Below, in pieces: positions 14,164 through 22,331 of a stretch of 36,981 nucleotides of DNA. Both the position numbers and the translations under genes were made by a program. The notes under the pieces are model-generated. The model made no database searches. It saw only the letters and a program-made list of their open reading frames with translations, and was not told where the DNA came from. How positions within the stretch are numbered: the stretch's first letter is position 1; each line of letters begins with the position of its first letter. The DNA is taken from positions 1 through 36,981 of the forward strand of contig CACLYO010000012.1 in NCBI GenBank assembly GCA_902611145.1. Direction: 5' to 3'. This DNA is from an uncultured Pelagibacteraceae bacterium. GTDB lineage: Bacteria > Pseudomonadota > Alphaproteobacteria > Pelagibacterales > Pelagibacteraceae.

Positions 14164-17040
14164 TTAAGCAATTTTTTTAACTTTATTTTCAAGCAAGTTT
14201 TTAAGAAATTGGCCAGTATAACTATTTTTTATATTGATAATTTCCTCTGGTTTGCCTTCAGCGACAATATTACCACCATTTACACCACCGTCTGGACCCA
14301 TATCAACAATATAGTCAGAGGTCTTTATTACATCAAGATTATGTTCTATTACTACAACAGTATTACCAGTAGCTACAAATGTGTGTAATATTTCTAAAAG
14401 CTTTTTTATATCATGTTGATGTAAACCAGTAGTTGGTTCGTCCAATATGTACATTGTTCTTCCTGTAGATCTTTTAGATAATTCTTTTGCTAATTTTATT
14501 CGCTGAGCTTCACCACCAGATAGTGTAGTTGCTTGTTGTCCTATTTTTATATATCCCAAACCTACTTTTTTGAGAGTTAAAAGTTTCGATCTTATATTTG
14601 GAATATTTTCAAAATAATCACAACCTTCATCAACTGTCATATTTAACACATCAGCTATACTTTTATCTTTAAATTTTATTTCTAAAGTTTCACGATTATA
14701 TCGACTACCCTTACATTCATCACAAGTAATATAAACATCAGGTAAAAAATGCATCTCATAGGTTATAACTCCATCACCCTCACATACTTCACATCTTCCA
14801 CCTTTAACATTGAAAGAAAATCTACCTGGTTTATAGCCTCTTGATTTTGATTCAGGTAAAGCAGTGAACCAGTCTCTTATTGGACCAAATGCTCCAGTGT
14901 AAGTAGCTGGATTTGATCTTGGTGTTCTGCCTATTGGTGATTGATCAATATTTATAATTTTATCTATTAACTCTACACCTTTAAAACTTTTAAAAGGCAT
15001 AGGAATTTTTCTTGATTTATTATTATTTAAAGTAAGATTTAAAGCATTATAAAGTGTTTGAATTATTAAAGTTGATTTTCCACTTCCTGATACTCCAGTA
15101 ATAGAAGTAAAACTACCAAATGGTATTTTTAAATTAATATTTTTTAAATTATTACCTGTTGCACCGCCAATTTCTAAAAATCTACCGTTTTTTGCCAATC
15201 TTCTTTTTTTGGGAATGGGTATAAATTTTTTATTAGATAAATATTCACCTGTTATACTTTTATCGCTTTTTAAAATATCTTCGTAATTTCCCTGGGCTAC
15301 AACTTGTCCTCCATTATTTCCTGCTTCTGGGCCCAAATCAATAATATGATCAGCACTCTCCATAGTCTCTGTATCATGTTCAACAACAATTACTGTATTT
15401 CCTAAATCTCTAAGTCTTTTTAATGCATCAATCAATTTAATATTATCTTTTTGATGTAAGCCAATAGACGGTTCATCAAGAACATAAAGCACCCCTGTTA
15501 ATCCTGAGCCTATTTGTGATGCCAATCTTATTCTTTGAGATTCTCCTCCAGATAGAGTTCCAGATTCTCTAGAAAGTGTTAAATAATCAAGACCAACATT
15601 TAATAAAAAGTTTAATCTTTCATTAATTTCTTTTAAAATATGTTGACCAATTTTTAACTGTTTTGGATCTAGACAAAGTTCTAAATTTTTAAACCATTTT
15701 TTTGCTTCAATAATTGATTTTTCTGTTACTTCACTTATATGCAAATTATCAATTTTTACACATAAAGCCTCATCTTTTAATCTATATCCTTTACAAATTT
15801 CACACTTTGTATCTGATTGATATTGTGAAATTTCTTCTCTTTTCCATTCACTATCAGTTTCAAGATATCGTCTTTCCAAATTATTAATAACACCCTCAAA
15901 GGTTTTTTTATGAGAATATTTTTCATAACCATCATCGTATGTAAATTTTATTTCTTCATCATCAGAACCATATAAAATTATATCTTTAACTTTTTTTGGT
16001 ATCCTTTGCCATTTATCATTCATTGAAAAATTATAATGCTTAGCTAAAGATGTTAATGTTTGAGCATAATAAAGAGTTGATGATTTTGACCATGGTTCAA
16101 TAGCTCCATCTGCAATTGATTTTTTTTCATTTGGCACAACTAAATTTGGATCTACATTAAGTTTTATACCGATTCCTTCACATTCTTCACAAGCACCATA
16201 AGGACTATTAAAAGAAAATAATCTTGGCTCTATTTCTTCAATTGTAAATCCACTTTCTGGACAAGCAAATTTTGACGAGAAAATTAATTTTTCAACTTTT
16301 CTGTATTTTACCGGCAAAGTTTCATTTTCATATTCTACGAATAACAACCCATTAGACAAATTTAAAGCAACCTCAATACTTTCTGCCAATCTATTTCCAA
16401 GCGAATTGTTAAGTATAATTCTATCTACTAAAATAAAAATATCATGTTTAATCTTTTTATTTAAATCAGGAGCTTTATCAATGTCATATAATTTTCCATC
16501 AATTTTAATTTTTCTAAAACCCCTTCTTTTATAGCTGCTAATTTCTTTTTTATATTCACCTTTTCTTCCTCTAACAACTGGTGCAAATAAATAAATAGTA
16601 GATTTTTTTGGTAATTCTTTTATTTTATCAACCATCTGAGTAATGGTTTGTGACTTTATTGGCTTCCCTGTATACGGTGAGTAGGGTACTCCAACTCTTG
16701 CATAAAGCACTCGCATGTAATCATAAATTTCAGTAACTGTTGCTACTGTTGATCTGGGATTTTTAGAAGTGTTTTTTTGTTCTATTGAAATAGCAGGGCT
16801 TAAACCTTCTATAAAATCTACATTAGGTTTTTTCATTTTATCTAAAAACTGTCTTGCATAAGCCGATAAGCTTTCAACATATCTTCTTTGACCCTCTGCA
16901 TAAATTGTATCAAACGCCAAGGAGGATTTTCCAGATCCGGAGAGACCAGTAATCACAACAAATTTGTCTTTTGGAATCGTCAGCGAAATATTCTTCAAGT
17001 TATGTTCTTTTGCGCCTTTAATAACTATGTTTTTGAGCAT
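14164..17040 (-). CDS. uvrA: Excinuclease ABC subunit A
   Basis: Damage-sensing ATPase of nucleotide excision repair. The 958-residue protein contains two ABC ATPase modules: Walker [10 protein letters not shown] at 32-40 and GVSGSGKST near residue 650, with signatures [12 protein letters not shown] and [12 protein letters not shown]. The insertion-domain segment [19 protein letters not shown] is recognisable. The second zinc module (CEVCEGDG ... CDECKGS) is intact. The first has C260, C284 and C287 but Ser at 263, where E. coli UvrA has its second Cys. It is divergent from ssb, the classic uvrA-ssb arrangement, across a 90-bp gap with a 30-bp palindrome. Confidence 0.98.
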
Positions 17041-21209: not shown

Positions 21210-21218
21210 TAATGTTCA

Positions 21219-22331
21219 ATGTCATTAAAAAAGTTTTCTTTTAATGTCAGTAAAAAGTGTGAATTTGCAAGAACTGGACAAATAGAAACTCATCGAGGAA
21301 ATATACAAACACCAGCATTCATGCCTGTTGGTACTCAAGGAACAGTTAAAGCCACATTTATTGATGATATAATTAAAACTGGAAGTGAAATAATTTTATC
21401 TAATACTTATCATCTAATGTTAAGGCCTGGTGTTGATAGAATTATTAATGCAGGTGGTTTACATAAATTCATGAATTGCAAACTTCCTATTCTCACTGAT
21501 TCTGGTGGATTTCAAGTTATGTCATTATCAAAATTAAATAAAATTGACCGAGAAAAAGGTGCTATTTTTAAATCACATATAGATGGTAAAGAATTTATTT
21601 TGAGTCCAGAAGAAAGTATCAGAATTCAAAAAGGATTAGATTCAGACATAGTAATGGTTATGGATGAATGTCCAAAAAACAGCATTGATAAAAATATTAT
21701 AAATCAATCAATGGATCTCTCGATGTATTGGGCAAAAAGATCAAAAACTGCTTTTGGAAATAACCCACAAAAGGGCTTATTTGGAATAGTGCAGGGTGGT
21801 CTATTTGAGGATTTAAGAAAAGAATCTTTAGATAGATTGGTTAAAATTGATTTTGATGGTTATGCAATTGGAGGTTTGGCTGTAGGAGAATCTCAAAAGG
21901 AAATGTTTTCTGTATTAGATTCTCTTAAGAAACATTTACCCGAAAACAAACCTAGGTATTTAATGGGAGTAGGTACACCTTCTGATATACTTGGTGCTGT
22001 TAAAAGAGGTATAGATATGTTTGATTGTGTATTACCTACTAGATCTGGCAGAACTGGATTAGCTTTTACATGGGAAGGAAGAATTAGTATTAAAAATTCA
22101 AAATATCAGAAGGATAATCAGCCTCTAGATCCAAAATGTAATAATTTTAATTTAAACAAGTATTCTAAAAATTATTTAAACCATTTATTTAATACAAACG
22201 AAATTTTAGCATCTATGCTCCTAACATTACACAATATTAACTTTTATCAAGAATTGATGGAATCAATAAGAGAACACATTAAAAACGGTACTTTTAATGA
22301 TTTTCACGACAAATATATCGGCAAGTTGTAA
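21219..22331 (+). CDS. tgt: tRNA-guanine transglycosylase (queuosine pathway)
   Basis: Exchanges guanine 34 of GUN-anticodon tRNAs for preQ1, the key insertion step in queuosine synthesis. The 370-residue protein carries FMPVGTQGTVKA, D94 in ILTDSGGFQVMS, GIVQGGLFEDLR, YAIGGLAVGE and nucleophile D269 in FDCVLPTRSGR, matching E. coli positions with a constant +5 offset. The structural zinc site is degenerate: C307 and H338 are retained, but Asn309 and Leu312 stand where E. coli has Cys304 and Cys307. Otherwise the protein looks complete and functional. It starts 9 nt after the cyclophilin gene. Confidence 0.97.
   Translation: MSLKKFSFNVSKKCEFARTGQIETHRGNIQTPAFMPVGTQGTVKATFIDDIIKTGSEIILSNTYHLMLRPGVDRIINAGGLHKFMNCKLPILTDSGGFQVMSLSKLNKIDREKGAIFKSHIDGKEFILSPEESIRIQKGLDSDIVMVMDECPKNSIDKNIINQSMDLSMYWAKRSKTAFGNNPQKGLFGIVQGGLFEDLRKESLDRLVKIDFDGYAIGGLAVGESQKEMFSVLDSLKKHLPENKPRYLMGVGTPSDILGAVKRGIDMFDCVLPTRSGRTGLAFTWEGRISIKNSKYQKDNQPLDPKCNNFNLNKYSKNYLNHLFNTNEILASMLLTLHNINFYQELMESIREHIKNGTFNDFHDKYIGKL

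Follow-up and report, generated by a model that had tools for sequence, protein, structure and literature searches.

The window analysed here is a 36,981-nucleotide stretch of a contig from an uncultured Pelagibacteraceae bacterium. It carries a tgt gene (tRNA-guanine(34) transglycosylase, 370 aa, positions 21219..22331, + strand) with part of the structural zinc site missing. PMC6165067 describes the zinc-binding domain as one of the two hallmarks of this enzyme family, alike in bacteria and humans. The locus raises the question of whether a bacterial Tgt can do without its structural zinc, and how widespread such a loss is.

The gene is identified by its translation and by profile matches to TIGR00430 (465.9 bits against a cut-off of 306.75, an equivalog match) and PF01702 (485.9 against a cut-off of 26.3). 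A profile search shows a single PF01702 match across the window's own genome, which is 83.8% complete. The catalytic residues are intact, as an earlier note on this DNA had stated. D94 (21498..21500, + strand; Z. mobilis D102) and the nucleophile D269 (22023..22025, + strand; Z. mobilis D280) align to Z. mobilis TGT and are Asp in 111/111 distinct Pelagibacteraceae CDS, and D149 is also unvaried in these CDS. Residues 218-223 form the substrate-pocket motif GGLAVG (21870..21887, + strand) and do not match the queuine-type pocket GG[LS][AS]G; the rule that separates queuine-inserting Tgt from the GGLAVG, or preQ1, type is given in PMC11570991. In family score, in the two catalytic aspartates and, in the structure model, in a TIM-barrel fold with a C-terminal subdomain, the window protein is a bacterial Tgt.

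The zinc site departs from this picture. Pairwise alignment, gapless in the region, places C307, N309, L312 and H338 of the window protein opposite C318, C320, C323 and H349 of Z. mobilis TGT (PDB 1ozm), and the CxCxxC...H ligand set of zinc-containing Tgt reads CxNxxL...H. Two of the four ligands are replaced, as the earlier note had claimed. C307 (codon TGT, 22137..22139, + strand) is the sole Cys left of the motif and is Cys in 95/112 related rows of the alignment. N309 (codon AAT, 22143..22145, + strand) and L312 (codon TTA, 22152..22154, + strand) stand in place of the other two, the latter being Leu in 110/111 distinct gapless Pelagibacteraceae CDS. The remaining zinc-site His, H338 (codon CAC, 22230..22232, + strand), is Asn in 13/112 related rows.

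When 85 columns conserved at 97% or more in 85 zinc-intact Tgt rows are considered, the window departs from three: W87C, C309N and C312L. Two of the three departures are zinc Cys, thus the loss goes beyond chance and is not random drift. The third, C87 (21477..21479, + strand), stands where zinc-intact Tgt has a Trp with 98.8% conservation, and the residue is Cys in 112/112 related rows. C87 aligns to Z. mobilis W95, near the dimer interface, and W87C may be a matched change at that interface.

The window also contains a UvrA gene (14164-17040, − strand). Its first zinc module, CPES...CEEC, is one Cys short of CxxC and the second module looks complete. Absence of the first-module Cys is common in alphaproteobacteria.

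Zinc ligands in and outside Pelagibacterales

Of the 112 related rows, 32 come from genomes that carry the code of the window's genus. The other 80, with 77-84% identity, come from named contigs taken at family level as Pelagibacteraceae, and there is overlap between the two sources. With the window these rows make the 113 rows of the window's group. Group names of the coded genomes follow from the window's nearest named relatives, uncultured Pelagibacteraceae and Candidatus Pelagibacter, which place the window in SAR11. A further 17 rows from other Pelagibacteraceae genera and 12 rows (11 genomes) from the sister family, the second family sampled, bring the Pelagibacterales rows to 141, with 13 genera sampled.

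The complete CCCH site is found in 0/141 of these rows and in none of the 13 genera (0/112 related rows, 0/17 from other Pelagibacteraceae genera, 0/12 from the sister family). The earlier note had proposed this alignment as a way to learn if the Asn/Leu replacement is clade-wide. The loss of the site is clade-wide, but Asn/Leu is just one among many replacements; all four ligands are gone in 8/113 rows of the window's group and in 1/17 rows of the other Pelagibacteraceae genera. At positions 307-309-312-338, rows near the window read mostly C-N-L-H or C-K-L-H, with variants that include V-K-L-N, V-I-L-N, M-K-L-N, A-I-L-H, S-N-L-H and T-N-L-H; exactly the pair C307 and H338 is retained in 91/113 rows. 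Genera g2, g3, g4 and g8 display V/I-C-S-H (7/7 rows), g5 and g6 C-I/L-L-H (6/8 rows), g7 L-I-L-N and g9 V-L-L-H (one row each), and the sister family S-N-C-H in 12/12 rows. Loss of the His at 338 within the order is always to Asn (15 rows).

Each of the three zinc Cys survives in a different lineage of the order. If Cys was not regained, these different remnants imply at least two breaks of the site within the order, and that the family ancestor kept C307 and C309 and the order ancestor C312 as well. On the same proviso, the residues suggest that the site kept eroding within the order after the first breaks. If true, the lineage-specific remnants are a natural step series of a protein outgrowing a structural metal.

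Among 397 genomes of the order, 348 have a tgt match. The match is single in 345 of these, and G262, G348 and G282 show two weaker matches each. A second, zinc-bearing Tgt paralogue was considered and rejected on these counts and on the single match in the window's genome.

Rows from outside the order were taken among the matches listed, 60 loci from one listing, picked by score, small genome and family spread, and 40 from another, with class matches to about E 1e-120. The full site is found in 51/66 sampled rows from other Alphaproteobacteria and in 34/34 sampled rows from other classes of the phylum. The 15 zinc-lost rows read S-C-A-N (6), L-C-S-H (2), S-C-S-H (2), L-L-S-H, C-C-L-H, C-C-S-H and S-W-T-I, and one, L187, is gapped at the zinc site and was scored as lost. 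L191 and L197, which appear zinc-lost in tblastn ('CGAH'), were rejected as gap misplacements and are CCCH under MAFFT. The S-W-T-I row, L260 (G754), belongs to an alphaproteobacterium of 8 Mb whose Tgt has lost all four ligands.

A quickly built tree of 119 Tgt proteins, with the zinc columns left out, contains 15/113 rows of the window's group, 17/17 of the other Pelagibacteraceae, 9/12 of the sister family, 66/66 of the other alphaproteobacteria and 12/34 of the non-alphaproteobacteria. On it, the state of the site switches between intact and lost at least six times, and positions 307, 309, 312 and 338 need 11, 4, 6 and 9 changes, respectively, loss and gain being indistinguishable in all these counts. 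AT-rich rows are flagged for composition, so attraction may explain why Pelagibacterales group with L159, L167, L186 and L187.

Why the site was lost can be read in more than one way. Zinc economy, i.e. selection for loss in a zinc-poor surface ocean, agrees with a loss that is order-wide in SAR11 and with the strongly minimised metal uptake of SAR11 described in PMC4771312. However, the same paper names high-affinity zinc uptake as the exception to this minimisation, and outside the order 5/18 sampled genomes of 1.5 Mb or less against 10/48 larger ones have lost the site, which is no clear difference. Zinc economy is a possible but unlikely cause. Since genomes of 3 to 8 Mb also lack the site, streamlining is not a sufficient cause. 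Nor is the loss, which the earlier note set in a streamlined organism, peculiar to one such organism: every Pelagibacterales genus sampled and 15/66 other alphaproteobacterial rows, those of 3 to 8 Mb genomes included, are without the site. A neutral route, by which alphaproteobacterial Tgt would hold the loop without metal and so tolerate its loss, accounts for such a recurrent and diverse pattern no less well than zinc economy.

The zinc loop, the dimer helix and a possible substitute site

The loop that carries the Cys motif and the helix that follows it differ sharply in conservation. Over 111 distinct Pelagibacteraceae CDS, the zinc loop (304-312) has the highest mean entropy of seven blocks, 1.36 bits, and the helix right after it (313-344) the lowest, 0.23 bits. 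Within this helix, Y315-H322 (22161..22184, + strand) is the aligned counterpart of W326, Y330 and H333 of Z. mobilis TGT, residues that PMC5395182 assigns to an aromatic hot spot at the homodimer interface. Across 141/141 Pelagibacterales rows Y319 and H322 are invariant, with either Tyr or Phe at position 315. Thus the dimer-interface residues are frozen while the loop varies, and the job of the subdomain seems to be kept with only the metal clip gone.

A first AlphaFold model, with 36 similar rows, was poor (pLDDT 69.6). The final alignment combined the window protein with 26 from Pelagibacteraceae and 9 more distant Tgt from viral contigs, 36 sequences in all, and gave a mean pLDDT of 86.4, with 88-98 in the blocks spanning 291-370 and less than 50 at 98-104. 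This model aligns to Z. mobilis TGT 1pud over 366 residues (VIA-align Z 49.8, rmsd 1.8) and displays a predicted short helix at 309-314. The model points to a normal Tgt fold with a C-terminal subdomain predicted at high confidence; it does not prove that the subdomain is stable without zinc.

One alternative keeps a metal in place, held by C307 and H338 together with other groups such as N309, H322, the partner subunit's C87, or water. The frequent joint presence of C307 and H338 speaks for this, as does the invariance of H322 and C87 in the 112 related rows. But rows that lose C307 and H338 retain C87 and H322, which places C87 outside any conserved three-ligand site; H322 is invariant in zinc-intact Tgt too, so it is not a new ligand; and some rows lack every one of the three Cys (such as V-K-L-N, V-L-L-H, L-I-L-N). 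A comparison of Cys/His columns across the groups found no new conserved column near the loop able to complete the site, and hence no nearby Cys/His pair of the kind that the earlier note had said would refute the loss. Continued metal binding is therefore improbable, and the retention of C307 and H338 together could reflect some residual function of the pair. Judging from these residues, the window Tgt presumably binds no metal.

Sequence and model together make it quite probable that the window protein is a functional bacterial Tgt without the structural zinc of its C-terminal subdomain. The short loop that once wrapped the metal would now be held by packing. The nearly fixed Leu312, and the Ile, Leu or Val found at the other Cys places in some lineages, suggest packing instead of zinc. 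His338, near the end of the last long helix, can turn to Asn, and its remaining role may be structural, e.g. a polar cap. The subdomain would still place the homodimer-interface helix, and the enzyme would still swap G34 for an imported 7-deazaguanine base, probably preQ1. E. coli Tgt Cys mutants reportedly lose zinc and activity, thus compensating changes would be needed.

The queuosine pathway and the state of the gene

A search of 197 genomes of the order for queA showed 41 matches, all in the sister family and in all four of its genera, and none in the six other genera sampled. queG is found in 4/5 genomes of the sister family and 0/25 Pelagibacteraceae genomes, and neither queH nor queC above the cut-off is found in any of 30 genomes of the order. 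QueC matches below the cut-off are present in 28/30 genomes, mostly partial and inside longer frames, and are probably other enzymes. The TIGR00697 precursor transporter is found in 30/30 genomes. The window's genome, G000 (83.8% complete), is among these and shows the transporter and tgt without queA, queG, queH or queC over the cut-off, which is the gene set of Bartonella-like preQ1 salvage. The 24 other Pelagibacteraceae genomes agree with it on the absence of queG and queH.

In the sister-family genome G002 the gene order is gyrA-coaD-cyclophilin-queA-tgt. The window shows gyrA-coaD-cyclophilin-tgt, and a g2 genome shares this order, likewise without queA. The order being otherwise the same, this slot, which in the window is the 9-base cyclophilin-tgt junction (21210..21218, + strand), seems to have lost its queA. 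A sister-family QueA query against the window, L218, L219, L220 and L263, with the queA of L217 as positive control, gave only two matches, both at chance level (E = 8.3 and 9.6), and thus no queA remnant. A search of the window and L215-L219 with Rfam at gathering thresholds shows tRNAs only and no preQ1 riboswitch.

The gene content of Pelagibacter, its GGLAVG pocket and a proposed preQ1 salvage are already reported in PMC11570991, whose main text does not use the word zinc. A later sentence there says that, Bartonella apart, every alphaproteobacterium analysed had tgt, queA and queG, which disagrees both with the paper's own statement on Pelagibacter and with the queA and queG counts given above.

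Outside the order, the queA search covered the genomes behind every zinc-lost alphaproteobacterial row (15) and behind 25 of the 51 zinc-intact ones, and queA is present in 12/15 and 24/25, respectively. Because queA is present in many zinc-lost genomes, the loss of zinc is independent of the loss of the pathway. Zinc loss as a by-product of queA loss is rejected, queA being kept in the sister family and in the 12 zinc-lost genomes outside the order.

These counts bear on another alternative, that Tgt is itself on the way to loss, with constraint relaxed after the queuosine pathway was shortened and the zinc site as the first sign of decay. The absence of queA, queG, queH and over-cut-off queC from the Pelagibacteraceae genomes searched agrees with it. 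So does the absence of a tgt match from 10 of 151 high-quality genomes of the order, including G099, G105, G107, G112 and G141. Among the 49 genomes without a match, the 20 listed all carry the code of the window's genus. Genomes without a match represent either assembly gaps or real tgt loss, and with 10/151 Tgt may be dispensable in some genomes of the order.

Selection was measured on 111 distinct, gapless and near-full-length Pelagibacteraceae CDS, a set in which g2, g3, g4, g8 and the sister family are not represented. It shows no internal stops; gapped or incomplete matches and exact copies were left out beforehand, a filter that would also have removed broken copies. The median NG86 dN/dS is 0.048 and the maximum 0.13 (403 pairs of 73 sequences; pairs less than 16% different, dS 0.05 to 1.2). 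tgt is under strong purifying selection. A dN/dS of about 0.05 with zero stops stands against decay, as do the sister family, which is zinc-lost yet has queA and, in 4/5 genomes, queG, and the queA of 12/15 zinc-lost alphaproteobacteria elsewhere. Decay is thus very improbable, and with the catalytic aspartates unvaried as well, the earlier note's reading of site loss rather than decay is borne out. Its interpretation is supported in part: the loss is real and clade-wide in a gene that is not decaying, and the zinc independence that it raised is probable, but the Asn/Leu pair is not general and the loss extends well beyond a single streamlined organism. A fault of assembly or sequencing, or contamination, has a negligible chance of being the explanation, as 0/112 related rows carry the two Cys, so that this refutation named in the earlier note is not seen, and the same residues are found in many separately assembled genomes.

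Significance and comparison with known systems

With a working Tgt that has lost its structural zinc as the preferred reading, a broader one is somewhat favoured: zinc is dispensable in bacterial Tgt and has been dropped repeatedly by alphaproteobacteria, and the Tgt of SAR11 is zinc-free, with the subdomain rebuilt around packing and the dimer helix frozen. Searches of open-licence PMC listings turned up no paper on a Tgt that has lost its zinc site. The shortened queuosine pathway of Pelagibacter (transporter and Tgt, without queA) has been published before. If a conserved enzyme has lost the site repeatedly, the metal must be replaceable, and nature provides variants for testing how. It would also be a caution to annotators and inhibitor designers that a zinc-held dimer interface is not to be assumed.

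A Bartonella-like case is found in G842, a genome of 1.5 Mb in a family that also includes genomes of 6 to 7 Mb. In its Tgt the zinc-site residues are S-C-A...N, and GGLAVG lies at residue 217 (216 from the second Met); there is no queA and an MFS transporter gene adjoins tgt. Features published for Bartonella henselae in PMC11570991 (no queA, GGLAVG pocket) match G842, and an MFS gene beside tgt in B. henselae is described in PMC11130926. G842 would then be a Bartonella-type genome. The MFS transporter gene at L263:6893-8089 immediately follows a tgt that lacks the zinc site; the genome has no queA, and the gene resembles the published second preQ1 transporter of B. henselae. PMC11570991 also reports that B. 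henselae Tgt partially complements an E. coli mutant with preQ1, down to 10 nM. The Bartonella-type Tgt reported to work in E. coli may thus be a zinc-site-less case; if B. henselae Tgt shares the G842 residues, a Tgt without the zinc site is already known to work.

The window Tgt shares with the zinc-containing Z. mobilis Tgt (TIGR00430) the fold, the catalytic aspartates, the GGLAVG pocket and the dimer-interface helix. It differs from the zinc-containing Z. mobilis and E. coli enzymes in the replacement of 2/4 ligands and in the altered composition of the loop. With Bartonella, as described in PMC11570991, it has in common a Tgt and a queuosine-precursor transporter without queA or queG, and the GGLAVG pocket. 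The Tgt of the Bartonella-like G842 also lacks zinc ligands, but it lies elsewhere on the tree and carries other residues at the site, and its gene has the MFS gene beside it.

The queuine-inserting Tgt of Chlamydia and eukaryotes (QTRT1) resemble the window in the lack of later tRNA-side enzymes, queA, queG and queH not being found in the Pelagibacteraceae searched. QTRT1 retains the zinc site, according to PMC6165067, and the window Tgt does not. The pocket differs as well, GG[LS][AS]G in the Chlamydia and eukaryote enzymes against GGLAVG in the window. C-minus ribosomal protein paralogues have lost a structural zinc site and are still used, and a zinc-bearing paralogue usually exists. The window Tgt is like them in the loss of the zinc site with continued use, but unlike them in that its genome shows no second Tgt.
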